57,064 nucleotides of DNA from a virus: positions 1-57,064 of IMG/VR virus record IMGVR_UViG_3300044981_000083; one strand, written 5' to 3'. The notes under the pieces are model-generated. The model saw only the letters and a program-made list of their open reading frames with translations. It searched no databases and was not told the origin of the DNA. A program made the translations under genes and the position numbers. This document shows, in pieces, positions 3,749 through 41,988 of this stretch (position 1 is its first letter; every line of letters starts with the position of its first letter).

Positions 3749-4536
3749 AACCACTCGCGATAGATCTTTACTGCGGGCTCGGCGGCTGGGCGGAAGGATT
3801 GCTGGCCGAAGGCTATGACGTGATCGGCTTCGATATCGAGCGGCATGTTTACGGCGAGCACCGCTATCCTGGCCTATTGGTAATCCAGGATGTCCGCACG
3901 CTTCACGGTTCGCAATTCAAGACCGCCCAACTGATCGTCGCATCGCCGCCATGCCAGGCATACAGCTACCGGGCGATGCCGTGGTCGCGCGCCAAGGCCC
4001 TGCCGCCGCCCGACAACACGCTGTTCGAGGCGTGCTTTCGCATCCAGCGCGAGGCTTGCGAAGCAGCAGGGCGGCACATTCCGCTGATCGTCGAGAACGT
4101 GCGCGGGGCGCAGAAATGGGTCGGGCGCGCCCGCTACTCGTTCGGCAGCTTCTACCTTTGGGGCGATGTGCCGGCGCTTATGCCGATCGCGCTGCGGCGC
4201 GGGAAGTCCAGCGGGATGAATTGGAGCGACCAGACAAAACGCGGGCAGGACTTCACGCGCTTGGCATGGCAAGAGGCGATCAAAAACAACGGTGGCTCGT
4301 GGTTCAACATCGCGAACAACACCACGAGTAGCAAAGGACGCAATCCGGATGGCCGCAAAGGCAAAGGTGGGACGTGGTTCCAGGAATATGGCCCGGATCA
4401 AGGAAGCCGAAATTTCGGTTCCAAGTCTCCGCGCCGCAAGATGTACAGCGCCATGATCGCCAAGATTCCGCTGACTCTCAGCCGGCATATCGGAGCGACC
4501 TTTCGTCCGCCGCGAGAACCCTCTGCCTCGCAGTGA
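3745..4536 (+). CDS. DNA (cytosine-5) methyltransferase
   Basis: The product (263 residues) shows the order of C5-cytosine methyltransferases. Motif I, DLYCGLGGW, for S-adenosylmethionine lies at residues 7-15. Motif IV, SPPCQAYSY, has the catalytic Cys at residue 70. Motif VI, IVENVRG, is at 115-121. It is short for the family, as phage versions often are. It starts with TTG after AGGGGAG. Methylation of phage DNA against host restriction is the usual role. It stands alone, with no partner endonuclease nearby. The stop codon lies within dispersed element copy 2. Confidence 0.88.
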   Translation: MKPLAIDLYCGLGGWAEGLLAEGYDVIGFDIERHVYGEHRYPGLLVIQDVRTLHGSQFKTAQLIVASPPCQAYSYRAMPWSRAKALPPPDNTLFEACFRIQREACEAAGRHIPLIVENVRGAQKWVGRARYSFGSFYLWGDVPALMPIALRRGKSSGMNWSDQTKRGQDFTRLAWQEAIKNNGGSWFNIANNTTSSKGRNPDGRKGKGGTWFQEYGPDQGSRNFGSKSPRRKMYSAMIAKIPLTLSRHIGATFRPPREPSASQ

Positions 4537-4546
4537 CCGTCTAGCC
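4533..4546. repeat. Dispersed element, copy 2
   Basis: The plus strand reads GTGACCGTCTAGCC, the complement of GGCTAGACGGTCAC. The TGA inside it is the stop codon of the methyltransferase. GGATTGATCCA follows 33 bases after its first base; the same spacing and sequence occur at copy 4. Confidence 0.6.
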
Positions 4547-4726
4547 TGCCCACCGCCGCAGCGTTGGATTGATCCATAAAAAGCCTTTCATCCCCGCCTC
4601 GAATCAGGACACTATCGCCCCCGCTGGATTGAACATCGTCGGCCCGTGGTGTGGTGGTACTAGCGCGGGCAGACGCTGGGAATCCGCTGCTTTGCGCCAG
4701 GGGCGCGAATCTGGGGAAAGTTGATC
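4537..4726. other. Intergenic region after methyltransferase
   Basis: These 190 bases hold no convincing gene. They contain dispersed element copy 2, the near-palindrome GGATTGATCC, and a short possible stem GCCCG/CGGGC around 4645-4670. A promoter or small RNA is possible but not shown. Confidence 0.4.
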
Positions 4727-4999
4727 ATGAGCTATCCGTCAAATCCAAACCAAATCGAAACCCCCGCAGCGCCAACGTCGCTCCTTAATTCCAGCGCCGA
4801 CCTAATTGAGCGCTTGGGGAAACTTTCACATCGGATTGCTTGCCTGGGCGACAGTTTGCTTGGCGCCGAACCGACGCCGATTCAAGGTACTGGCAAGGAA
4901 AGCGAGCCTTCGCCGGCTGTGCTGCGTAACCTCAATCGTTGTCATGCTTTCATTTCCGAGTGTGAGAATCTTCTTACGCGCATCGAAAAGCGCGTGTGA
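4727..4999 (+). CDS. Small helical hypothetical protein
   Basis: The protein has 90 residues. An N-terminal Pro/Asn-rich stretch is followed by two amphipathic helices (about residues 25-45 and 70-90) that could form a coiled coil. ATG at 4727 is preferred, with GGGGAAAG upstream; a TTG at 4721 is also in frame. No family recognised. It is the first gene after a 190-base gap and precedes the 158-residue protein. Confidence 0.6.
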   Translation: MSYPSNPNQIETPAAPTSLLNSSADLIERLGKLSHRIACLGDSLLGAEPTPIQGTGKESEPSPAVLRNLNRCHAFISECENLLTRIEKRV

Positions 5000-5012
5000 G
5001 GCGGCTTCCTGA

Positions 5013-5489
5013 ATGAGCGCCGACTTTCCAACCGCCGACGATGTAGCCTGGGCGATCGTCGCGGGATGCCGCGAGACCGGCGAAGACCCGATCGCGTGCG
5101 ACGGCCGCAAGATGAGCATTCGCGGAAGGCATTACGCGCTGCATGCGCTGCTGCACGTCTTTCCCGAGTTGCCGCGTTATCGCGCTGCTGAACTTGTCGG
5201 TTGTCCCGGAAAGCCGGCGGCATTCTGGAATAATTCGTGGTATCAGGTTATAAGACCGTGTGGCGCCGGGGGCGCCCTGCATATGGCGAATTGGTTTGAC
5301 GACGAAGCCTATGCCCGCGTCATCGCCATTGTCGAGCTGAGCGCGTCGGATCGCCGCGCGCTTCCAACCCGATCGCTCACCATCGACTTCCGCCGCAAGC
5401 CCTCAACAGACTACGATGACGTTACCGCCGCTCAGATGGGCGACCCGGCGCCCGGCCGCTCTGCGCTCGACCAGAGGATCAACCGATGA
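5013..5489 (+). CDS. Conserved-type hypothetical protein, possible DNA-binding helices
   Basis: The first 80 residues of this 158-residue protein are helical, with a DDVAWAIVAGCRE helix, a GRKMSIRGRHYALHAL basic segment and a VGCPGKPAAFW turn. This resembles the C-terminal DNA-binding domains of DnaA-like or GcrA-like proteins, but I cannot confirm it. The last 40 residues look disordered. It overlaps the next small frame by four bases. Confidence 0.65.
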   Translation: MSADFPTADDVAWAIVAGCRETGEDPIACDGRKMSIRGRHYALHALLHVFPELPRYRAAELVGCPGKPAAFWNNSWYQVIRPCGAGGALHMANWFDDEAYARVIAIVELSASDRRALPTRSLTIDFRRKPSTDYDDVTAAQMGDPAPGRSALDQRINR

Positions 5490-5554: not shown

Positions 5555-6460
5555 ATGCTGATCTTCGACACCGCCGGCTCCGTCGTTCCATTTATCTCGC
5601 GCCTTCTTGCGATCGACAAGGACGTGGTGGCGATCCGTTACATTGCGCCTGGGCAAGCGAACCTGTGGAAAGTGATCAGCGACACCGAAGCGCGCTGCAT
5701 CGCGGCGGCGAACAGGCCGGGCTTCCGCTTCCGCATCGGGCTGGTCTATGAGACCAACGGGCGCCCGCGCGGCGCTCCGACCGGCTTCAGCGACGGCGGC
5801 TACGCCGCGACGCGAGCACAGCAGCTCGGGATGCCGCCGAACGGGTTTATGGGCTATACGAGCGACGAGGACTCACCAACGAACCTTGATCCTGTGGTGC
5901 AGGCGTTCGAGGCCTTTTTCGCCAAGGTCAAGACGACGAACCGTGCCTGCTATGGCGCCGGGCATACCTACGACGCGATGTACCCGCAAGGCATCATCAA
6001 CGTGCGCTGGCCGACCGAGAGCATGGGCTTCACCGATACGCGCGCCGACCTCAACAAGGGCGACTGGGACCTGCAGCAGACGCTTGCGTCGCCGACGAAT
6101 CCGCTCCACGCGCTCCGCATGGACTACGATGGCAACATCCAGCGAGACCCGAACGCCGATCTCGGATTCTTCGTGCCGCAGGTGGCACCCCCGGTGCTGC
6201 CCGACAGCGTCCTCCCGCACACGGCGACTACGGACAGCGTCGAGGCACTCCAGCTCGCGCTCAACAGCCTGGACAGCGCCGGCCTCGCTGCGGACGGCGC
6301 CTACGGGCCGGCGACCACGGACGCGGTGGAGGAATTTCAGCGCTCGCACGGGCTCGTGGTGGACGGCCTCGCCGGCCCCGCGACGATCGCGGCCATCAAG
6401 TCTAAGCCGAATCCGTCCATCCCGGCCGATGGTCGACCGCCGACGGGGACGATGTCATGA
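5555..6460 (+). CDS. Endolysin: glycoside-hydrolase-like (DUF1906-type) plus PG-binding domain
   Basis: The 301-residue protein has two parts. Residues 1-190 resemble the Rv2525c/DUF1906 glycoside-hydrolase-like TIM-barrel fold, with GFRFRIGLVYE, a YAATRAQQLGMPPN segment and FFAKVKT. Residues 225-285 are a peptidoglycan-binding domain with SVEALQLALNS, GAYGPATTDAVEEFQ and GLVVDGLAGPAT. It should bind and cut cell-wall glycan at lysis. It overlaps the second lysin gene by four bases. The family of the catalytic part is assigned by pattern only. Confidence 0.75.
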   Translation: MLIFDTAGSVVPFISRLLAIDKDVVAIRYIAPGQANLWKVISDTEARCIAAANRPGFRFRIGLVYETNGRPRGAPTGFSDGGYAATRAQQLGMPPNGFMGYTSDEDSPTNLDPVVQAFEAFFAKVKTTNRACYGAGHTYDAMYPQGIINVRWPTESMGFTDTRADLNKGDWDLQQTLASPTNPLHALRMDYDGNIQRDPNADLGFFVPQVAPPVLPDSVLPHTATTDSVEALQLALNSLDSAGLAADGAYGPATTDAVEEFQRSHGLVVDGLAGPATIAAIKSKPNPSIPADGRPPTGTMS

Positions 6461-7203
6461 CTGACCAGCAGATCACCGCCCTCGCTGCGACTTCATCTGC
6501 CGCGCGCTATCCGTGGCGCGCCGACGGCGTGGCGCCGATCGGCTACACCAAGGGCATGGCGCTTGCCTACGCTCGCCTGTACGCGGCGTTGAAGGCCGGC
6601 GATAAGTTCGCCGCTGCGATGGCGGTGGCCAACACGCACGATGCAGAAAGGGACGCGCTGAGCTGGTATGCCGGCATATTTGACGAACACGGAATGGCCA
6701 ACGACGTTGCAGGCTCCAACGTGCTCCGTCACGATTTCATGCTCCTATGGGGCCTCGGGATGCGTGAGAGCAGTGGGCAATATTGCTGCGGGCGCGACCA
6801 ATCCGCAAGGAACGTCTCAGCCGATACTGCGGAGGCGGGGCTTTTCCAGATGAGCTGGAATGCGCACGAAGCCTCGCCGCTGCTCCTGGACCTCTATAAT
6901 TCATGGCACGGCGAGAGCCTCCTTACGGTCTTCCAGGAAGGCGTGCGCTGCAAGCCTGCCGATGCGGAGAACTATGGGATCGGTTTAGGCCAGGCGTTTC
7001 AGGCCCGCTGCAAGCTGTCGCCGCTGTTCGCCGTATGGTTCGCCGCTTTAGGACTCCGCGTCGTACGAACGCACTGGGGACCGATCGACCTCCGTGCGGA
7101 TGAAGTGCGTCCGGAAGTTGACGAGTTGCTGCAACAGGTGCAACTGATCGTGGACGCCGCGTCGGAAGGGGCGCCCCCGAAACCTGGACCCGACACGGCA
7201 TGA
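6457..7203 (+). CDS. Lytic transglycosylase/muramidase-like protein
   Basis: The centre of this 248-residue protein holds GMRESSG and then, about 25 residues later, AEAGLFQMSW. This is the Glu plus GLxQ/M pattern of SLT-type lysozyme folds, with the Glu in RESSG the likely catalytic acid. The conserved C-terminal half has several Trp and Cys residues. It sits directly behind the first endolysin in an ATGA overlap, so this phage carries two different wall-cutting enzymes in tandem. Confidence 0.72.
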   Translation: MTDQQITALAATSSAARYPWRADGVAPIGYTKGMALAYARLYAALKAGDKFAAAMAVANTHDAERDALSWYAGIFDEHGMANDVAGSNVLRHDFMLLWGLGMRESSGQYCCGRDQSARNVSADTAEAGLFQMSWNAHEASPLLLDLYNSWHGESLLTVFQEGVRCKPADAENYGIGLGQAFQARCKLSPLFAVWFAALGLRVVRTHWGPIDLRADEVRPEVDELLQQVQLIVDAASEGAPPKPGPDTA

Positions 7204-9597: not shown

Positions 9598-9788
9598 GCA
9601 TGGACCAGTCTCGGCGATACAGACTCGTGTTAAAGCGGCGTGAAATTAATTCACAACGTTTGCAACAAGAAAACAATACTATGATCGCAGCTGCGCTTGG
9701 AGCGCAGCGCTATGCCAATGACTGCGCCCAGCGGCTCCGGGCAAAAGATGGCGGCAACCTGACGCTGCCGGCCACCACGGGGCTGTGA
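9594..9788 (+). CDS. Small basic helical protein
   Basis: The protein has 64 residues from GTG at 9594 (GTGA overlap), or 62 from ATG at 9600. It is rich in Arg and Gln, probably a single long helix, with no membrane span. Function unknown. Confidence 0.5.
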   Translation: MSMDQSRRYRLVLKRREINSQRLQQENNTMIAAALGAQRYANDCAQRLRAKDGGNLTLPATTGL

Positions 9789-9791
9789 GCG

Positions 9792-10547
9792 ATGGTTGCC
9801 GTTCGCCGCCTCCGATCTCGCGATCCCAACGGTGTCGCGTACCGCGAGACGCGCCCCGGCATCGCGGTGGACGCGCGCGGCGGCGAAGTCGTTGATCCGA
9901 CCGAGAACGTCCGCCAGCTCGTGCTTGCTGAGAGCAAGTACCAGGACGCGATGCGCGGCGAGCTGGAAAAGCAGATGACCATGTCAGTTGCCTTCTCGCG
10001 GGATACGATGAAGATTCTCTCAGATAACGTCGTGGCCTTCCAGAATGCCCAGCGCGACGCCGAGACCAAGCGCATCGACCAGCTCGCCTCGACGCGGCAG
10101 GAGTTTCAGAACACGATCCGCGACATGCTCGCCGAGTCGGTGCGCACCACATCGAACCTCGTCTCGACGCAGCTCGTGCAGATTCAGGCGACATTCGACA
10201 CGCGGGTCACCAAACTGGAGGCTGGAGCATTTACCCAGGCCGGCAAGAGCAGCGTGCAGGACCCAGCGACGGCGGACGCTCTGACGCGCATGGGTAATTC
10301 CATTTCCTCGTTCGCAACCATGACGGCCGAGATGATGAACAAGAGCCGCCTGGAAACCGCGGAGGCCATCTCCAAACTAAACACGACCATCGTTTCCATG
10401 CAAACGTCGGAGGGTCGCTCTGGCGGCAACATCATGGGCCGCGACCAGAGCAACACGCGCATGTGGGCCGTCATCATGGCCGTGGCGGCGGTGGCATCGC
10501 CCGTGATCTCAATCCTTGTCGCCGTGCTGGTCACGCGGGGACACTAA
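9792..10547 (+). CDS. Tail-anchored coiled-coil membrane protein
   Basis: The 251-residue protein has a long coiled-coil region (about residues 45-215) that ends in a single C-terminal membrane span (MWAVIMAVAAVASPVISILVAVLV) and a short tail. Such a tail-anchored rod could bridge the inner membrane and the periplasm, like a spanin. No lipobox partner was found, so this is only a possibility. It is the last long gene of the lysis cluster. Confidence 0.65.
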   Translation: MVAVRRLRSRDPNGVAYRETRPGIAVDARGGEVVDPTENVRQLVLAESKYQDAMRGELEKQMTMSVAFSRDTMKILSDNVVAFQNAQRDAETKRIDQLASTRQEFQNTIRDMLAESVRTTSNLVSTQLVQIQATFDTRVTKLEAGAFTQAGKSSVQDPATADALTRMGNSISSFATMTAEMMNKSRLETAEAISKLNTTIVSMQTSEGRSGGNIMGRDQSNTRMWAVIMAVAAVASPVISILVAVLVTRGH

Positions 10548-17094: not shown

Positions 17095-17167
17095 GCACTC
17101 GTAGCTCAGTGGATAGAGCGTCGGCCTTCTAAGCCGAAGGTCGCAGGTTCAAATCCTGCCGAGTGCG
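17095..17167 (+). tRNA. tRNA-Arg (anticodon TCT)
   Basis: The 73 bases fold into a complete cloverleaf. The acceptor stem is GCACTCG/CGAGTGC, the D stem GCTC/GAGC, the anticodon stem TCGGC/GCCGA with loop CTTCTAA, and the T stem GCAGG/CCTGC with loop TTCAAAT. The anticodon TCT reads AGA/AGG, which are rare in GC-rich alphaproteobacteria. The bases after the discriminator are CCCA, so CCA is not cleanly encoded. No integrase is present, so an attachment-site role is not supported. Confidence 0.95.
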
Positions 17168-17256
17168 CCCAGTATACGGTATGCTGTGGTTGCGGCGGAT
17201 ATACGCGGAGAATCAAAGGTCGCTGCGAAACATGCGGCGATATTATCCCCAATTAG
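17168..17256 (+). pseudogene. Zinc-ribbon coding remnant after the tRNA
   Basis: The frame directly after the tRNA encodes CCGCGGYTRR, then GRCETCGDIIPN and a stop. This looks like the end of a zinc ribbon, with CxxCG pairs, but the frame has no start codon after the tRNA and runs back through the tRNA itself. It may be the tail of a gene cut by tRNA insertion. Confidence 0.35.
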
Positions 17257-17285
17257 CCGGCCGTCATAACGTCTTCTGCCCCAGG

Positions 17286-17299
17286 GTGACCGTTCAGCC
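17286..17299. repeat. Dispersed element, copy 4
   Basis: The plus strand reads GTGACCGTTCAGCC, the complement of GGCTGAACGGTCAC. It is the inverted partner of copy 3 across the tRNA. GGATTGATCCA follows at the same distance as in copy 2, just before the ATG at 17334. Confidence 0.65.
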
Positions 17300-17333
17300 G
17301 CCCCGCCATCTCAGAGCCGGATTGATCCAGATC

Positions 17334-17684
17334 ATGCCCATCAAATCCACCGTCCCCCGCAAGATTTCCGCGCTCCTGCTTGAGCTTATCGCACTGGCCG
17401 ACTATGCGCTTGCCGCGCCCTTCATCTCCTACCTTAACCTCGCCGACCAGATCGAGCGCCTCCATTCCGATCTCGTCTCAGCCAAGATGCGCGCCAACCA
17501 TCTCGGCATCAACTTCGCCGCCGCGGACATGCTCCTGCAAGCGATCGAGCACCTCGCCGAAGCTGATCCGTCCTCCGAAGACGGCCGCTGGGGCCTCCTT
17601 GTCGAACAGCTTGCCATCTATGTGCGAGCCGACATGAAACGGGCGGGTGAACTCGAACTGCAACAGATGCGGGAGCGGGTATGA
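17334..17684 (+). CDS. Helical hypothetical protein
   Basis: The 116-residue protein is almost entirely alpha-helical. The start at 17334 follows the GGATTGATCCA element and has no clear Shine-Dalgarno sequence. It overlaps the HNH gene by four bases. No family recognised. Confidence 0.6.
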   Translation: MPIKSTVPRKISALLLELIALADYALAAPFISYLNLADQIERLHSDLVSAKMRANHLGINFAAADMLLQAIEHLAEADPSSEDGRWGLLVEQLAIYVRADMKRAGELELQQMRERV

Positions 17685-18094
17685 GCGCTGGACCTTTCGC
17701 GAATGAATTTCATTGTGATCTGTGCTGTTTCTATTGTGAAACTCCATTATATATATTGGGGCGCGTATCTATTGCCATATACTGCGCGCGCGCTGGAGTA
17801 TATCGCGCCAAGCAGCTATTCGCGCGTTACGCTCGCTGTTCGAGAGAGCATTTGGTGCGAAAAGCCGATGGTGGAGTAAGCCTGCCAAATAACATCGTGT
17901 CTGCATGCGTGTGGTGTAATACGACTCGGGGCGAGTCGAGTCCGAGCGCGCACAAAAGCAGAATTGCAAAATTACTCTCAAGAAACCGCCATCCCGTGGG
18001 CACGCCATGGCGAAAATATGAGCGGTGGCGAAGGATTGCTAGGAAATCAAGAATGGCAATGCCGACTATTCATCGTTCTTTTCATCTCGCGTGA
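17681..18094 (+). CDS. HNH homing-type endonuclease
   Basis: This 137-residue protein has an N-terminal CCFYCETPL knuckle, then CSREHLVRKADGGVSLPNNIVSACVWCNTTRG, the HNH core with the catalytic His in EHLV and a second Cys pair, and a basic C-terminal tail. The coding sequence is clearly more AT-rich, with TATATATAT stretches, than its neighbours, which suggests recent arrival as a mobile homing-like gene. It overlaps both neighbours by four bases. Confidence 0.85.
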   Translation: MSAGPFANEFHCDLCCFYCETPLYILGRVSIAIYCARAGVYRAKQLFARYARCSREHLVRKADGGVSLPNNIVSACVWCNTTRGESSPSAHKSRIAKLLSRNRHPVGTPWRKYERWRRIARKSRMAMPTIHRSFHLA

Positions 18095-19473
18095 CAAAGA
18101 CGATCGCCATGACCGACGACTTCCCCACCAAAATCCGCACCCTGATGCAAGCCGGCCATGGCAGCGTCTATATCGGCCGCCAGCTCGGCATCTCCAAGGA
18201 CGCCGCGTTGCGCCTGATGCGCAAGGCCAAGGCCGAAGACCTTTCCTCTACCTCCTGCATCACCACCCTTCCCCTCGACCGCATCATCGTCGGCGAGCGC
18301 ATCCGCGAGAAATTCGACAACATCCCACAACTCGCACAATCGATTTCCGACCGCGGCGGCCTCATCAACCCCATCACCGTCGGCCCCGCCCTCCCCGACG
18401 GAACGCACGAGCTCATCGCCGGCGACCGGAGAATGCGGGCCTGGCAGCATGAGAACTGCCGGTTCAAGGGCGAACCGATCCCGGTCACGATCTTCAACCC
18501 CGACGACAAGACTCGCGCGGAGTTTGACGAAAACGAACAACGCGATGCACTGAAACCCTCGGAATACCTCAAAGCGATGCGCATCTTCGAGCGCGCAAAG
18601 GACGCCTGGGAAGCCAATACTAAGGCCAAGCGTTCCACGGAATCAAAGCCCGCTCCCGGCCGTCCCGCCGATCCCGAGGCACCCCGCGCGGGGCGCTTCA
18701 AGGACCAGATCGCAGCTTATGTCGGACGTGACCGCAAGACGGTGGAGAAGGCTGTCGAAGTCGCCATGGCCGCAGAAGAAAACCCCGAGCGCTTCGGCAA
18801 GCTCCTCTCCGACATGGACCGCACGGAGAACGTCAACGGTCCCTACCGCCGCCTCAAGATCATGCAGCAGACCGATGCGCTCAAGGCGCAGCCGCCTTCG
18901 CTCCCAGGCCAGGGTCCCTATTCTGTGATGGTGATCGACTATCCGTGGCCGCATGAACCGGACATGAGCCAAGAGGAAATCGATGCGGCAGGACGTTCGC
19001 TGCGGCCCTATCCGCCCATGGCGTTGGATATCGGCCGAAGCTTCATGCTGGATCATGTCGGACCGCTGGTCGCCGATGATGCAATCGTTTTCTTCTGGAC
19101 CACGAATTTCCATATGCCGCACGCATTCTCTTTGCTGGCGCCATTGGGATTTCCGGTGCATTCCACTATCGGAACGTGGGTCAAACAACGCCAGGGCCGC
19201 GGCCAAGTCCTGCGCGACAAGACCGAGCACTGCATCGTTGCCAAGCGCGGCAAGCCGCTTATCAACTTGACCCACCAGACCACCGCCTGGGAAGGCTGGA
19301 GCCAGCCGCGGGAAAACTCGATGAAGCCTCCGGAGTTCTACCGCATGGTGGAGACACTGTGCCCGGCCAAGCGATATTCGGATATTTTCTCGTTCGGTCC
19401 GCGCGGAGCGCTGTGGGACTGCTACGGCGATCAGGCGCAGCTATTGGCGGTGCAGGAGGAGGCGGCGGAATGA
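18091..19473 (+). CDS. ParB-domain / MT-A70 adenine methyltransferase fusion
   Basis: The 460-residue protein begins with a short HTH (about 20-45). A ParB/Spo0J N-terminal domain at about 60-165 follows and has both nucleotide motifs, LIAGDRRMRA (109-117) and ENEQRDALKPSEY (147-159). A second HTH-like region lies at about 205-230. The C-terminal MT-A70 methyltransferase has IDYPWP at 282-287, a variant of the DPPW catalytic motif, then EHCIVAKRGKP and KPPEFYRMVE. It should methylate N6-adenine, targeted by the ParB part. It starts with GTG in a GTGA overlap; the Met at residue 7 is an alternative. The C-terminal EEAAE is repeat-encoded. Confidence 0.88.
   Translation: MTKTIAMTDDFPTKIRTLMQAGHGSVYIGRQLGISKDAALRLMRKAKAEDLSSTSCITTLPLDRIIVGERIREKFDNIPQLAQSISDRGGLINPITVGPALPDGTHELIAGDRRMRAWQHENCRFKGEPIPVTIFNPDDKTRAEFDENEQRDALKPSEYLKAMRIFERAKDAWEANTKAKRSTESKPAPGRPADPEAPRAGRFKDQIAAYVGRDRKTVEKAVEVAMAAEENPERFGKLLSDMDRTENVNGPYRRLKIMQQTDALKAQPPSLPGQGPYSVMVIDYPWPHEPDMSQEEIDAAGRSLRPYPPMALDIGRSFMLDHVGPLVADDAIVFFWTTNFHMPHAFSLLAPLGFPVHSTIGTWVKQRQGRGQVLRDKTEHCIVAKRGKPLINLTHQTTAWEGWSQPRENSMKPPEFYRMVETLCPAKRYSDIFSFGPRGALWDCYGDQAQLLAVQEEAAE
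19458..19473 (+). repeat. EAAE junction repeat, copy 1
   Basis: The sequence GGAGGCGGCGGAATGA encodes the last residues of the methyltransferase and holds both the ribosome-binding site and the ATGA start of the next gene. Confidence 0.75.
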
Positions 19474-20068: not shown

Positions 20069-20178
20069 AAACGCTGTTCTGCCGGCTATGCTATTGGATC
20101 GTGACCGTTTGGCCGATCGGTTTCAGCTCATGGCAACCACGTTCCATGCGTTATCCTAGCGAGGAGGCGGCGGAATGA
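20065..20178 (+). CDS. 37-residue protein with EEAAE tail
   Basis: A 37-codon frame is bounded on both sides by the EAAE junction repeat, which makes it a likely real gene despite its size. It has two cysteines and a hydrophobic centre (YWIVTVWPIGFSSW), possibly a membrane-associated peptide. Dispersed element copy 6 lies inside it. Confidence 0.55.
   Translation: MKTLFCRLCYWIVTVWPIGFSSWQPRSMRYPSEEAAE
20101..20114. repeat. Dispersed element, copy 6 (diverged)
   Basis: GTGACCGTTTGGCC differs by one base from the complement of GGCTAAACGGTCAC. It lies inside the 37-residue gene, so it may be a chance or decayed match. Confidence 0.35.
20163..20178 (+). repeat. EAAE junction repeat, copy 4
   Basis: GGAGGCGGCGGAATGA joins the 37-residue gene to the Gp37/Gp68 gene. 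Confidence 0.75.
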
Positions 20179-21257
20179 GCGATCGCAGCGCCATAGAATG
20201 GACCGACGCGACATGGAATCCGGTGCGCGCATCATTTAGAACGACAGTGCGATACCCTAATCTCGGTGCGATGGAAACCCGCATCGGCTGGCACTGTGAG
20301 CACATCTCCGAAGGTTGCCGCTACTGCTATGCCGAATCCATGAATCGCCGCTTCGGCACCGGCCTCGACTACAAGCCCGGTCATCGCGGCGACATCGAAA
20401 TCTTCCTCGACGAGACGACGCTGCTCGCGCCGCTGCGCTGGAAGAAGCCGCACATGATCTTCGTTTGCTCGATGACCGACTTATTTGCCTCGTTCGTCAC
20501 GGACGAATGGATCGACCGCATCTTTGCCGTGATGGCGCTCTGCTCGCGGCATACGTTCCAGGTGCTGACGAAGCGACCGGAACGGATGCGGGAATACTGC
20601 TGCGCGATGATAGCCGGCAAGCGCAACATCATTCAAGCTGCGAAGGACTTTCGTAACTCAATCACGGATGCAGCGGTCGCGCGAGGCAGTTTGATCGTTG
20701 ACTACCCGGAAGAGGGAGAGCCGATAAAAATCCGCCCCCTCCCCAACGTTTGGCTCGGCACTTCCTGCGAAGATCAGGCAGCCGCCGACGAACGCATTCC
20801 GCATCTGCTGGCGACGCCGGCGGCGATTAAGTTCGTGAGCGCGGAGCCGCTATTGGGATCGATCGACCTAACTGAACTTTATCCGGATATCCAATCCGAG
20901 AATGCGCTTCACGCTCTAGCTGGCATCCGAGCAAATCCAAATGGAACAGCGAGTTTCTGCCGTGGCCTCGATTGGGTAATCGTCGGCGGCGAGAGTGGCC
21001 CGCACGCGCGGCCAATGAATCCGGATTGGGCTCGTTCGATTCGAGAGCAGTGCAAGGCGGCAAACGTACCTTTCTTTTTCAAGCAAAACGGTGAGTTTAG
21101 ACCAGTCAGTGATATTCCGATCGAAGAAATACCGAATGGCGGTTACATTTATAAATTTGGTCCCACGGGCGAATCCGTCTGCCGCATCGGCAAGAAGCGC
21201 GCCGGGCGCCTCCTCGATGGCGTCGAACATAACGGAATGCCGTTGCGCCCATGCTGA
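20175..21257 (+). CDS. Phage Gp37/Gp68 family protein (DUF5131)
   Basis: The 360-residue protein opens with IEWTDATWNPV and has the Cys cluster HCEHISEGCRYCYAESM (about residues 40-56), as in Gp37/Gp68 proteins. The cluster resembles radical-SAM iron-sulfur sites. Further conserved pieces are FVCSMTDLFA, FQVLTKRPERM, NVWLGTSCEDQ and WVIVGGESGP. It overlaps the primase by seven bases. These proteins are common in phages, but their reaction is not established. Confidence 0.88.
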   Translation: MSDRSAIEWTDATWNPVRASFRTTVRYPNLGAMETRIGWHCEHISEGCRYCYAESMNRRFGTGLDYKPGHRGDIEIFLDETTLLAPLRWKKPHMIFVCSMTDLFASFVTDEWIDRIFAVMALCSRHTFQVLTKRPERMREYCCAMIAGKRNIIQAAKDFRNSITDAAVARGSLIVDYPEEGEPIKIRPLPNVWLGTSCEDQAAADERIPHLLATPAAIKFVSAEPLLGSIDLTELYPDIQSENALHALAGIRANPNGTASFCRGLDWVIVGGESGPHARPMNPDWARSIREQCKAANVPFFFKQNGEFRPVSDIPIEEIPNGGYIYKFGPTGESVCRIGKKRAGRLLDGVEHNGMPLRPC

Positions 21258-22441
21258 CCGACGCCGAACTCTCCGATCTCAAATCGCGCCCCGAGAACGA
21301 CTGCGGCGCACTCGCCCAGCGCTTCGGCGTCACGCTGCATCGTTCCGGCTCGCGCACCGTTGGCCCGTGCCCGCTGTGTTGCACTGATCTATCCTCGCGC
21401 CGGAAGGCGTGCTTTGAAATCAAGGAGAACGGATATGCCTTCGTTTGCGCGAAGTGCCATCAAGGTGGAGACTGCATCGAACTCGTTTCGCGTTATCTTA
21501 ACATCGAGTTCCTTGCCGCCGTTGAATGGCTCGGCGGGACCAAGGCGGTGGATCCCGCTATCGCTGCGGCCCGAGAGCGCGAACGTAAAGCCCAACAGGA
21601 CAAACGCGACCGCGCTGCCGCTTATTTTCGCGAACGCGCCCGCACCAACCTCTACACGACATGGAACAAAGCCCACAAACTCCCGGGCACTCCCGCCGAA
21701 GCCTATCTGAAGCTGAGAGGCATCGACGTTCCACCTCATGAATATGAGAAACTACGTTTACGCTACATGGACAACTGCCCATTCTTTCACGGCGAGGAAA
21801 TCGGCCCCGATGGCAAAAAGTATCAGAGGATCATCCACCGCGGGCCCGCGATGCTCGCCCCGATCACCGACAACGAAGGAAAATTCAGGGGACTCCAGTT
21901 CACTTGGATCGACCTCGCGCAGCCGAAAGGTAAAGCGGCCATCATCGACCCCGACACGGGAGAAGAAGCTTCGACGAAAGGTCGAAAGACTCGAGGCTCG
22001 GTTGCGGGAAATCATATCGATCTCGTTGGCCCTCGCGCGCCGAAGCAAATCATCGTCGGCGAAGGCACGGAATCGACGCTCTCAATCTGGCAAACCATGA
22101 TCGCCTGCGGCATCGACATTTCCACCACCGCCTTCTGGTCGGCGCTCGACCTGGGCAATCTCGGTGGACCCGCACAAGATTCGCTGACCTACCGGACCGA
22201 AGACAACAAGCCGCGCCGCTGCCCCGGTCTCACTCCAGCTTTGGACAAGCCCCAGATTATATTGCCCGACTCAACGGAAAGTGTCGTGATGGTCGGTGAC
22301 GGTGATTCTCATCCGTTGCTGACGCAAGCCGCGATCTACAGGGGCGTGCAGCGGTGGCGAATCGCGCGGCCCGATGTATTGGTGCGCGTGGCGTGGGCGG
22401 ACAAGGGGACAGACTTCAACGACATGCTGCGGGGGAGCTGA
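21251..22441 (+). CDS. DNA primase (zinc finger plus Toprim)
   Basis: This 396-residue protein has an N-terminal CHC2-like zinc finger (CPLC at 40-43, CAKC at 66-69). A charged linker follows, then a Toprim domain with IIVGEGTES (267-275, metal-binding Glu at 271), VVMVGDGD and GTDFNDML near the end. It makes RNA primers on phage DNA and works with the D5-like helicase encoded just downstream. This is the typical arrangement for phage and plasmid replication modules. Confidence 0.88.
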   Translation: MLTDAELSDLKSRPENDCGALAQRFGVTLHRSGSRTVGPCPLCCTDLSSRRKACFEIKENGYAFVCAKCHQGGDCIELVSRYLNIEFLAAVEWLGGTKAVDPAIAAARERERKAQQDKRDRAAAYFRERARTNLYTTWNKAHKLPGTPAEAYLKLRGIDVPPHEYEKLRLRYMDNCPFFHGEEIGPDGKKYQRIIHRGPAMLAPITDNEGKFRGLQFTWIDLAQPKGKAAIIDPDTGEEASTKGRKTRGSVAGNHIDLVGPRAPKQIIVGEGTESTLSIWQTMIACGIDISTTAFWSALDLGNLGGPAQDSLTYRTEDNKPRRCPGLTPALDKPQIILPDSTESVVMVGDGDSHPLLTQAAIYRGVQRWRIARPDVLVRVAWADKGTDFNDMLRGS

Positions 22442-22691: not shown

Positions 22692-22895
22692 TTGCGCATC
22701 GTTGAACCGATCCCGTTTTGCTGCGGCATGCCTTGGCACGCACGATATTTCGAGGATTTCGAAACGATTAGCGCAGCCTGTATGTATTGCGATCGAGCGA
22801 TTGCCGTGCCTTTGGAGGCGAAGGACAAAAAGGTCGCCTGCATTTATTGCGGACTCGATAAAGGCTTTCTTCCCGCGGTTGAGATCGAGCCGTGA
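22692..22895 (+). CDS. Small zinc-finger protein
   Basis: The 67-residue protein has CMYCDR and CIYCGLDKG knuckles forming a zinc site. It starts with TTG behind GGGGTGGAC; an internal Met at residue 13 is also possible. It overlaps the helicase start by four bases (GTGA), so it is coupled to replication genes. No family recognised. Confidence 0.65.
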   Translation: MRIVEPIPFCCGMPWHARYFEDFETISAACMYCDRAIAVPLEAKDKKVACIYCGLDKGFLPAVEIEP

Positions 22896-24655
22896 CTCCC
22901 CACCGCCCCCCCACCCCGCAGGAACTTCGCATCGCCCAAATCCTGCGCGACGCGAAGCCCCCGGAGCGTCCCGATATCGAGGCCCTGTCATCCCCTCCCC
23001 GCAAGCGCAGCGCGCCCCGTGCGCCATTTGCCGCTGTTGGCGACAGCAAAGAATCACCACCCTCCCAAACGGGAGGATCGCCGTCGAATGAAAAAACACG
23101 ACCGGCGGGAGAAGCCGGCCGCGGCGAAGCCTCGCCATCATCGAGCACCCTTACAAATCAGCGCCTCGCTTTCCTGCCCCTGACAGATCTTGGCAATGCG
23201 GAGCGGTTCGTCGAGCGTAACCGCGGGAAATTCATCGCTTGTTCGGCGATCGGTTGGCTGCGGTGGGACAACCGCCGATGGTGTAAGGATGGCGTTGACG
23301 AGAGGGTCAGGATCGCCGCCCATGAGACCGTGAGAGCGATCCAGGACGAAGCGGATGCAATCGCGGATACCGATCTCGATACGAAAGTGGGAAAGAAAGG
23401 CCCTGCCAAGGATAAGCAGGCCGTGATGCTCTCCGACAAGCTCCGCGCCTGGGGCCGCAGATCAGAAGCAAATTCGGCCCTCAACCAACTCGCCGACCAG
23501 GCGCAGGCCTATCTTTCCGTGCTCCCCCATCAGCTCGACGCCGACGGCTATGCGATCAATGTCAGGAACGGTACGCTCCGAGTGAAACGTGATGCGTCCT
23601 CCGACGAACCCGCCATCACCTTCACGCCACACGATCCCGCAGATTTTATCACCAAGCTGTGTCCTGTGGACTACGACCAGGATGCCACCTGCCCGCGCTA
23701 CGATGAATTTCTCTCCGAGGTGCAGCCGACTGTGGAAATGCGTCGATTCCTGCACCAATGGATGGGCCTGAGCCTCACCGGGGAGACCGGGGAAGCGCGC
23801 ATGGCGATCTTCTGGGGCGTGGGACGGAATGGCAAGAGTGTGTTCATGGAGACCGCGGCCCACATCGCCGGAGACTATTCGACCACCGTTCCTGTGGAGA
23901 CGTTCGTGTCCGACTCCCGCGGCCGTAATGCCGGCCAGGCCACCCCAGACCTCGCCAAGCTTCCCGGTGTCAGGTTGTTAAGGGCATCCGAGGCCGAACG
24001 CGGCGGGTCCCTGCAAGAAACACTGATCAAGTCCGTGACCGGGGGCGACCAGATCACCGCACGAAATCTCAACCGTCCCTATTTCGATTTTTATCCCCAG
24101 TTCAAACTCACGATCACCGGGAACCAGCGCCCTAATATCAAAGGTACAGACGAAGGCATATGGTCTCGGGTGACCCTTGTGCCCTGGACCGTGGTGATCG
24201 CACAAGAGAAGCGCGATCCGCAACTCCTCTCCAAACTCAAGGCGGAAGCTTCCGGCATCCTCAACCGCTATCTCGATGGTCTCCGCGACTGGCTCGATCA
24301 CGGCTTGAAGCTCCCCGACGAGGTGAAGGAAGCCACCGCTGAATACCGGCGCGACCACGATGCCTTGGGGAGATTCCTGGAGGAGGCGACTCGCCGCAAG
24401 GAAGGCTCCCGCGTCGGCGTCACCGAAGCCTTGAACGTCTTCAACGGCTGGGCCATCGCCAATGGCATCAATGAATGGAAAGGCAAGGGCTTTTCCAACG
24501 CCATGACTGAGCGCGGCTACCGCAAGATCAAGTCCGACGTGATGCAGTTCCTCGATATCGAGCTCATCAAATCAAGATTGGATTATGTGGACTATGAAAA
24601 CAAGCCGATACGGCAGCACCAGATGGGCATGAGCTATGAGGAGGCGTCGTCGTGA
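22892..24655 (+). CDS. D5-like superfamily 3 helicase/primase C-terminal protein
   Basis: The 587-residue protein has a disordered Pro/Ser-rich N-terminus (1-90), a D5_N-like domain (95-300), and an SF3 helicase domain with Walker A GVGRNGKS at 309-316. A Walker B region follows around VRLLRASEAER, then sensor residues in FKLTITGNQRP. These enzymes unwind DNA as hexamers at phage and plasmid origins. It starts with GTG. A GGGAGGAT/CCTCCC hairpin inside the gene (23061-23078) repeats the origin-like element found downstream. Confidence 0.9.
   Translation: MTPHRPPTPQELRIAQILRDAKPPERPDIEALSSPPRKRSAPRAPFAAVGDSKESPPSQTGGSPSNEKTRPAGEAGRGEASPSSSTLTNQRLAFLPLTDLGNAERFVERNRGKFIACSAIGWLRWDNRRWCKDGVDERVRIAAHETVRAIQDEADAIADTDLDTKVGKKGPAKDKQAVMLSDKLRAWGRRSEANSALNQLADQAQAYLSVLPHQLDADGYAINVRNGTLRVKRDASSDEPAITFTPHDPADFITKLCPVDYDQDATCPRYDEFLSEVQPTVEMRRFLHQWMGLSLTGETGEARMAIFWGVGRNGKSVFMETAAHIAGDYSTTVPVETFVSDSRGRNAGQATPDLAKLPGVRLLRASEAERGGSLQETLIKSVTGGDQITARNLNRPYFDFYPQFKLTITGNQRPNIKGTDEGIWSRVTLVPWTVVIAQEKRDPQLLSKLKAEASGILNRYLDGLRDWLDHGLKLPDEVKEATAEYRRDHDALGRFLEEATRRKEGSRVGVTEALNVFNGWAIANGINEWKGKGFSNAMTERGYRKIKSDVMQFLDIELIKSRLDYVDYENKPIRQHQMGMSYEEASS
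23061..23078. repeat. Origin-type repeat inside the helicase gene
   Basis: CCTCCC AAAC GGGAGGAT is a 6-bp stem with a 4-base loop. It carries the same GGGAGGAT unit as the repeats at 24870-25140. It lies in the low-complexity N-terminal linker, where coding constraint is weak. Confidence 0.5.
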
Positions 24656-40456: not shown

Positions 40457-40502
40457 CCCGATGCGGCACTGTGCTGCGCGACTGAAAAAAAGGAGACTCA
40501 CA

Positions 40503-41126
40503 ATGGCGTACGACTCCGAAAAGCACGAAATCGATCCCGTGACGGGGTTTGCGGTGCATAAGGATACCGAGAGTATCGTGGGCGTTGTTCCGCGCCCGCG
40601 CCGCCCCACCGAGCCCGTCATCTATCCGGCCTGGATCAAGCCGCATCAGAGTCACATTATTCGGAAGAAGGTCGAAGGGGCGCCGGATGACGTCTCATGT
40701 CCGGGGTTTGAGAGCCGCGTCGATCCGGTCAACGGCGAGGTAACAGTGCTCGTGAACGACGCCGCCCACGAGGCCGTCGCTACGCTGCCGAGAAACGAAC
40801 GCAAGAACGTGCCCACCGGCGACTATCCGACCTGGGTAGCGCCCCACGAAAGCCATGTGGAACGCAAGAAAACCGAAGGCGCGCCGGATCACGTCTCGTG
40901 TCCCGGCTTCGAAACCTCTGTGAATCGCGTCAACGGCGAGGTCAGGGTGCTCGTGCTCGATGCCGACCACGAAAAGGTCGCAACGGACGCGAAGCAGGAG
41001 GCGAAGGTCCCGGATCCTCCTCTTCACGCGCCCCCGAATCCTTCCAGCAGCGCCGGCGCCTCTCCTCCCCCTCCGGTTCCTCCTCTTCGCCCATCCGAAC
41101 CCCCGCAGGCCGCCGCAACGGGCTGA
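40503..41126 (+). CDS. Head decoration-like protein with internal duplication
   Basis: The 207-residue protein has two tandem copies of about 65 residues. Both contain W(I/V)xPHxSHxxRKKxEGAP, DxVSCPGFE and NGEVxVLV (residues 40-105 and 106-170). A Pro/Ser-rich tail follows. Its start at 40503 has AAAAGGAGAC upstream. Position after the coat gene suggests a capsid decoration or stabilising protein; the family is not identified. Confidence 0.7.
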   Translation: MAYDSEKHEIDPVTGFAVHKDTESIVGVVPRPRRPTEPVIYPAWIKPHQSHIIRKKVEGAPDDVSCPGFESRVDPVNGEVTVLVNDAAHEAVATLPRNERKNVPTGDYPTWVAPHESHVERKKTEGAPDHVSCPGFETSVNRVNGEVRVLVLDADHEKVATDAKQEAKVPDPPLHAPPNPSSSAGASPPPPVPPLRPSEPPQAAATG

Positions 41127-41175: not shown

Positions 41176-41191
41176 TGTTTCACGTGAAACA
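41176..41191. promoter_or_regulatory. parS: Perfect parS-type centromere site
   Basis: TGTTTCACGTGAAACA is identical to the consensus of bacterial chromosomal parS, the site bound by ParB/Spo0J; with flanks ATG..CAT it is an 18-bp perfect palindrome. It is the only such site in the window. It lies 18 bases before the next start codon, in a 5' leader. It is followed by TTTTT, so a terminator-like role is an alternative. The phage has no ParA and its ParB-domain protein is a methyltransferase fusion, so host ParB is the likely binder. Confidence 0.75.
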
Positions 41192-41208: not shown

Positions 41209-41988
41209 ATGTTTGTCATGCCGACCCGTGAGCAGGCGGGCTATCTTCCCCCCGAAATCGCCGGCGAAGGTCAAAAAGTCATCCTCGGCGATGGCGAGAC
41301 CGTCAACTGGTCGCCCCCGCCGAACAAACCGATCATTCCCGACATTTCCAATGTCAAGAGCATCCGTAAATACTTCAACCGCATTGGTTACCAAGTATGG
41401 CCGGCATGGCTCTACCATCCAACCGAGCCCGCGAGACTGGCGAAGACGGCCCATGAAGCCGCGGAGCTGGGTGTCTGCTATCGCGAAGCCTCGAACGACG
41501 AAAAAGGTCGCTATGGCCGTTCCCATGTGTGGGACTGGAAGGACGATTCGTTGTGGCGCCCGACGCCCTACGCGGTAAGCAAGGCGAGGGTCTATGATCC
41601 CCTTCGCCCCGAACAGGGCAAGGAATTTCGTCCAACCCCGCCGAATCCCATCGTGGCACAGGATGCGCTGCTCGAAAGACTTCTGCCCGCGATCGCCGCC
41701 GCAGTGGCGAAGGAGGTCCGTAAGCCCGACGGCATCGACCCGCGCCAGTGGGACTCGTTCCTCAAATTCCAGGCCTTCCAGAAGGCACAGGAAGCCCTGG
41801 AGAACGCGAACAGCGAATCGAGGGAGGAAGATGCCCCCGCGAGCGAACTCGCGCTCAGTACCCTCTCCCCCGAGCAGGAACGGGCGGCCTATGAGGCGGA
41901 AGCCGAAAAGCTTGGGATCAAGACGGATGGTCGCTGGTCGCTCGATAAGCTCAAGAACATGGTCAAGCAGGCCCAGAAGGCGGCGTGA
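41209..41988 (+). CDS. Head-module protein with HeH/SAP-like C-terminus
   Basis: Most of this 259-residue protein is unassigned (Trp- and Pro-rich PNKPIIPDISN, VWPAWLYHP). The last 35 residues, YEAEAEKLGIKTDGRWSLDKLKNMVKQAQK, look like a HeH/LEM- or SAP-like helix-extended-helix domain that binds DNA or proteins in phage virion proteins. The ribosome-binding site TTAGGAG is good and lies directly behind parS. Confidence 0.7.
   Translation: MFVMPTREQAGYLPPEIAGEGQKVILGDGETVNWSPPPNKPIIPDISNVKSIRKYFNRIGYQVWPAWLYHPTEPARLAKTAHEAAELGVCYREASNDEKGRYGRSHVWDWKDDSLWRPTPYAVSKARVYDPLRPEQGKEFRPTPPNPIVAQDALLERLLPAIAAAVAKEVRKPDGIDPRQWDSFLKFQAFQKAQEALENANSESREEDAPASELALSTLSPEQERAAYEAEAEKLGIKTDGRWSLDKLKNMVKQAQKAA

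Follow-up and report, generated by a model that had tools for sequence, protein, structure and literature searches.

The virus sequence analysed here carries an intact and conserved gene whose product joins a ParB-CTPase fold and an MT-A70 methyltransferase domain in one chain. The window, i.e. the whole stretch of DNA that was analysed, is an entire IMG/VR virus record (57,064 bases), and the phage is of an alphaproteobacterial type. The fusion gene (18091..19473, + strand) starts with GTG and encodes 460 amino acids in an open frame. We propose that this product acts as an N6-adenine methyltransferase of the phage, in the MT-A70 (beta) class, with an NTP-dependent ParB/HTH DNA-binding module, encoded in the early/replication region and modifying phage DNA, a proposal that we see as evenly poised between right and wrong.

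The start of the fusion gene and the stop of the upstream ORF share 4 bp (GTGA). Such an overlap, as GTGA or ATGA, recurs at the start of the fusion in several relatives, with a different upstream gene, which supports the GTG start. The protein opens with a helical, HTH-like segment (residues 11–51; 18121..18243) that AF2 models as three helices (pLDDT about 60–70); this segment is specific to the phage and does not align with the relatives. It is followed by the ParB-CTPase-fold domain with boxes I–III (residues 55–158; 18253..18564), a helical linker with an HTH (residues 203–266; 18697..18888) that is conserved across the family, and the MT-A70 domain (residues 271–450; 18901..19440), which includes the tetrad DYPW (residues 283–286; 18937–18948), all encoded on the + strand. 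A preliminary description had placed a ParB domain and an MT-A70 domain in one protein, and Pfam, structural matches and motifs all confirm this.

Two AF2 models were used, one built from 6 alignment rows with a poor pLDDT of 60, and a second built from 12 rows with a pLDDT of 70.7. Structural matches of the MT-A70 half come from the second model, and those of the ParB half are quoted from the first, because METTL3 entries dominated the matches listed for the second. In the first model, the ParB half resembles ParB, Noc, and sulfiredoxin structures (Z about 8–10), including Caulobacter crescentus ParB (6t1f_C; Z 10.0, rmsd 2.0 over 76 residues). The Pfam family ParB_N (PF02195) matches residues 76–139 with 24.3 bits in the protein and 27.6 bits in a whole-frame search (cut-off 26.3), while the NCBI ParB/RepB/Spo0J family TIGR00180 reaches 28.7 bits, below its cut-off of 58.45. 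Box II (LIAGDRRMRAW, residues 108–118) and box III (DENEQRDALKPSE, residues 146–158) are both present and conserved in the homologues, so the nucleotide motifs are intact as previously reported, and CTP use by the protein is plausible, although sequence alone does not reveal it. Other fusions of a ParB fold and a SAM methyltransferase bound ATP, no rule that predicts nucleotide specificity was found, and NTP binding was absent in 17 of the 28 ParB-fold proteins assayed (PMC12704722).

The region after the ParB fold appears to depart from canonical ParB. None of the 12 fusion members matches the Pfam ParB HTH family, and alignments between a ParB-plus-HTH profile and solved ParBs are mainly to the N-terminal fold, with one Caulobacter alignment continuing weakly beyond it. 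The AF2 model shows an HTH of another kind than that of ParB in this position.

In the C-terminal half, Pfam MT-A70 (PF05063) matches residues 323–447 (E 3.8e-11, 43.7 bits, cut-off 23.9), and all 12 family members have this match. The alignment of the 12 members shows Y, F, P, or V at the second position of the tetrad, which reads DYPW in the window, L001, and L191; DFPW in L123, L125, L187, and L194; DPPW in L124, L126, and L196; DVPW in L193 only; and DFPV in L192 only. The preliminary description was correct that DYPW stands in place of DPPW, and the change is an ordinary one. The window tetrad retains the D, the third-position P, and the W, and DYPW is probably no sign of lost function because the second residue appears free to vary in the family. 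A mild caution concerns F435, which adjoins the SAM pocket and replaces the R of most relatives, at a position that aligns with what we take to be R536 of METTL3. Separately, the homologue in L192 (5631–7979), with DFPV for DxPW, is without the tryptophan, and its MT-A70 domain is possibly inactive.

A structural search with the MT-A70 half of the second AF2 model gave METTL3 (5il1_A) at Z 15.2, with an rmsd of 3.0 over 158 residues, and MTA1 (9u9e_A), a DNA enzyme from ciliates, at Z 14.7. The modelled fold alone does not show whether the substrate is DNA or RNA. An RNA methyltransferase, in which the MT-A70 half modifies rRNA or mRNA of the host while the ParB/HTH half targets RNA or the ribosome, is conceivable but unlikely. 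METTL3, an RNA enzyme, is among the closest solved folds, and 16S rRNA is the preferred substrate of the MT-A70 protein of STEC phage PA8, which acts with a wHTH partner encoded upstream, so the substrate of the fusion may be RNA (PMC10810198). Against this, the Z score of MTA1, which methylates DNA, is close to that of METTL3, and ParB and HTH modules usually bind DNA. In addition, BCE_0392, a prophage ParB-methyltransferase that resembles the fusion by its description, is reported to make m6A in DNA.

Searches of viral and genome contigs recovered 11 relatives whose alignments span both domains at 38–49% identity, one in a Rhodopseudomonas MAG and the remainder in IMG/VR contigs. The ParB boxes, the helical region that follows them, and the MT-A70 motifs are all conserved among the 12 sequences (window plus relatives). 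Of 397 genomes that belong to the same order as the Rhodopseudomonas MAG, only 3 gave a profile match at E<=1e-30, and two of these matches were partial; the fusion is therefore rare. With 12 homologues and several tetrad variants, the family provides good candidates for questions of nucleotide choice and ParB-guided methylation. A different ParB fusion is present in L197 (7001–8464), where the partner resembles a DPPY-type amino-methyltransferase.

The gene neighbourhood is also conserved. A homologue of the primase gene lies 3–5 kb downstream of the fusion in 7 of the 11 relatives, and 5 of these also reach a D5-type helicase. In the window, a primase-like gene (DUF7146/Zn-ribbon; 21251..22441, + strand) begins 1.8 kb after the fusion and is followed by a D5-type primase/helicase gene (22892..24655, + strand), the same order as in the relatives. 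Among the others, the contig of L187 ends before the primase position, and L191, L193, and L196 have no primase homologue within the available stretch. These shared primase/helicase surroundings therefore place the fusion gene in an early/replication module. A DUF5131 gene sits beside the fusion in the window (20175–21257), and one is also found between fusion and primase in L194 (8712–9671). A tRNA-Arg(TCT) gene (17095–17169) lies just upstream of the early module, and the virus record has no match to the tyrosine integrase family. L001 has a PAPS-reductase-like gene, by reading of the sequence, close downstream of its fusion (9669–10430).

The location of the gene ahead of the primase and helicase would also suit a protein that aids replication, in which the ParB fold nicks DNA and promotes replication or concatemers, while methylation limits self-damage. 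We find this account improbable, and the nuclease claims made for ParB folds are older than the discovery that the fold binds NTPs, which counts against it. On its side, BCE_0392 is reported to show nicking (PMC5512222) and an associated concatenation (PMC3459991; PMC5512222).

Immediately upstream of the fusion, an HNH endonuclease-like ORF (17681..18094, + strand) shares 4 bp with the fusion gene and has an overlap of the same length on its other side. This arrangement recalls a restriction-modification pair in which the HNH protein cuts and the fusion protects; however, the neighbourhood comparison found that none of the relatives has an HNH homologue next to its fusion, and in the window this ORF has the look of a local insertion. 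We thus hold such a pair to be quite improbable. A proposed correspondence between the ORF that precedes the HNH gene (17163–17684) and the small pre-fusion ORF of the relatives is unsupported (hhalign probability 4, E 0.011).

The presence of a parS site in the same genome, also claimed in the preliminary description, is borne out by an exact chromosomal-type parS of 16 bp, TGTTTCACGTGAAACA, at 41176..41191. The site is intergenic (between ORFs 40461–41126 and 41209–41988), lies in the structural module, and is the sole one within 3 mismatches in the window. Shuffled sequences contain 0.08 sites when up to 3 mismatches are allowed, and an exact match is expected about 1e-5 times by chance (57,000/4^16). 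An identical 16-mer forms the chromosomal parS in the Rhodopseudomonas MAG, which has two exact copies, one of them beside an ORF read as mnmE. The phage parS is thus the same as the host chromosomal site and is most likely a target for host ParB that is unconnected with the fusion.

The further suggestion that this parS is a loading point for the fusion did not hold up. Under that model, a ParB clamp would load at the 41.2 kb site and methylate adenines while sliding; the intact nucleotide boxes and the exact parS in the same genome speak for it, yet we judge it extremely unlikely. The site is 22 kb from the fusion gene and identical to that of the host chromosome, and parS is found at up to 2 mismatches in none of 10 fusion-bearing virus records. 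Conversely, none of 24 records that share the capsid type of the window yielded the fusion, a result weaker than it appears because the profile search had no positive control (many of these records are also fragments). For example, the capsid kin G006 has an exact parS elsewhere and no fusion was found in it, and two other kin have one-mismatch sites elsewhere. A link between fusion and parS is thus rejected, given that the two do not co-occur and that none of the 12 members, whose similarity to canonical ParB mostly stops before the HTH, matches the ParB HTH family. For a ParA partner, the virus record gave no AAA_31 match, while all control genomes matched, and a whole-frame search of the record gave no second ParB domain.

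A more general form of the idea, in which a nucleotide-gated clamp loads at a specific site (parS or one of its own) and carries the MT-A70 domain along phage DNA, is very improbable. If true, methylation would depend on how far the DNA lies from the point of loading and not on a short sequence motif, and the "new way to choose methylation sites" announced in the preliminary description is a conjecture.

The parS sites of the window, like those of three capsid-related phages, would recruit host ParB. No parS-like sites were found near capsid genes in 55 loci. The exact 16-bp parS is present in at least 120 IMG/VR stretches (e.g. L018 and L045), some with five copies. Exact or one-mismatch sites occur in L186, L184, and L185 (each at 1501–1516), in two cases inside an HTH regulator-like ORF. 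In L063, an exact parS (2926–2941) lies about 3 kb from an MT-A70 gene (6038–6514; 31.8% identical to the window domain), a proximity that is probably coincidental. Our literature search found no publication on parS sites that a phage carries and host ParB serves. The occurrence of host-type parS in phages may be of greater importance than the fusion, and of the two it is the orphan parS that is the more curious.

For the reading we prefer, i.e. a methyltransferase acting on phage DNA, we infer that the ParB/HTH half would dimerise and bind DNA in a nucleotide-dependent way. It would then present the DNA to the MT-A70 half, standing in for the separate partner subunit that MT-A70 enzymes usually require for full, specific activity (PMC10810198). 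The m6A would be placed on the DNA of the phage at about the time when it replicates, and would probably shield this DNA from host restriction or mark it for regulation. The conserved primase/helicase surroundings and the m6A reported for BCE_0392 speak for this reading. Domain composition, motifs, modelled fold, conservation and neighbourhood are observations, and the use of DNA as substrate, of an NTP as ligand, the dimerisation and the purpose are our inference.

The ParB–MT-A70 architecture has already been described, and the fusion found here is a further example. Compared with canonical ParB and Noc, the window protein has the ParB-CTPase fold with boxes I–III, but it has no ParA, it gives no match to the ParB HTH family, and MT-A70 occupies the place where a C-terminal dimerisation domain, of which none was found, is expected. 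The MT-A70 protein of STEC phage PA8 works with PNB-2, an HTH nucleic-acid-binding partner comparable to the HTH of the window protein; by contrast, these are separate subunits, the paper names no ParB domain, and the preferred substrate is rRNA (PMC10810198). In Bacillus cereus, the prophage protein BCE_0392 is, like the window protein, a ParB fused to an adenine methylase, and its activity was seen as m6A in Escherichia coli DNA by LC-MS (PMC3459991); the host differs, and the likeness is one of description.

Closer counterparts are found in cultured phages of rhizobial hosts, where proteins of PHROG 21315 also have a ParB-like domain, an HTH, and MT-A70 in one chain. This profile, to which no function is assigned, is matched nearly end to end by gp19 of Mesorhizobium phage vB_MseS-P1 (19–412) and by gp59 of Agrobacterium phage Rivra. 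The window protein covers only positions 239–408 of 415, i.e. the MT-A70 half, and is therefore a sister of PHROG 21315 and not a member. Its ParB half is nearer to PHROGs 4715, 12047, and 3264, with GDRR in box II where PHROG 21315 has GHHR. In Rivra (L203), an annotated PAPS-reductase-like gene (4173–5180) directly follows the PHROG 21315 protein.

The 2025 survey of ParB-CTPase folds by Kaljevic and co-workers describes MT-A70 fusions that are enriched in archaea and, in phages, ParB-CTPase folds fused to other DNA methyltransferases (PMC12704722). Its ParB–MT-A70 fusions have the same order as the window protein (ParB-like part, HTH, MT-A70). An example that our own searches turned up, the archaeal plasmid protein QLJ53513.1, is 29% identical to window residues 207–450, and its first 94 residues match ParB PHROGs. 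In contrast to the archaea-enriched fusions of the survey, the one described here resides in an alphaproteobacterial-type phage and carries an extra N-terminal helical segment, and with it a compact, well-conserved group of alphaproteobacterial phage proteins joins the newly recognised ParB-fold fusions.
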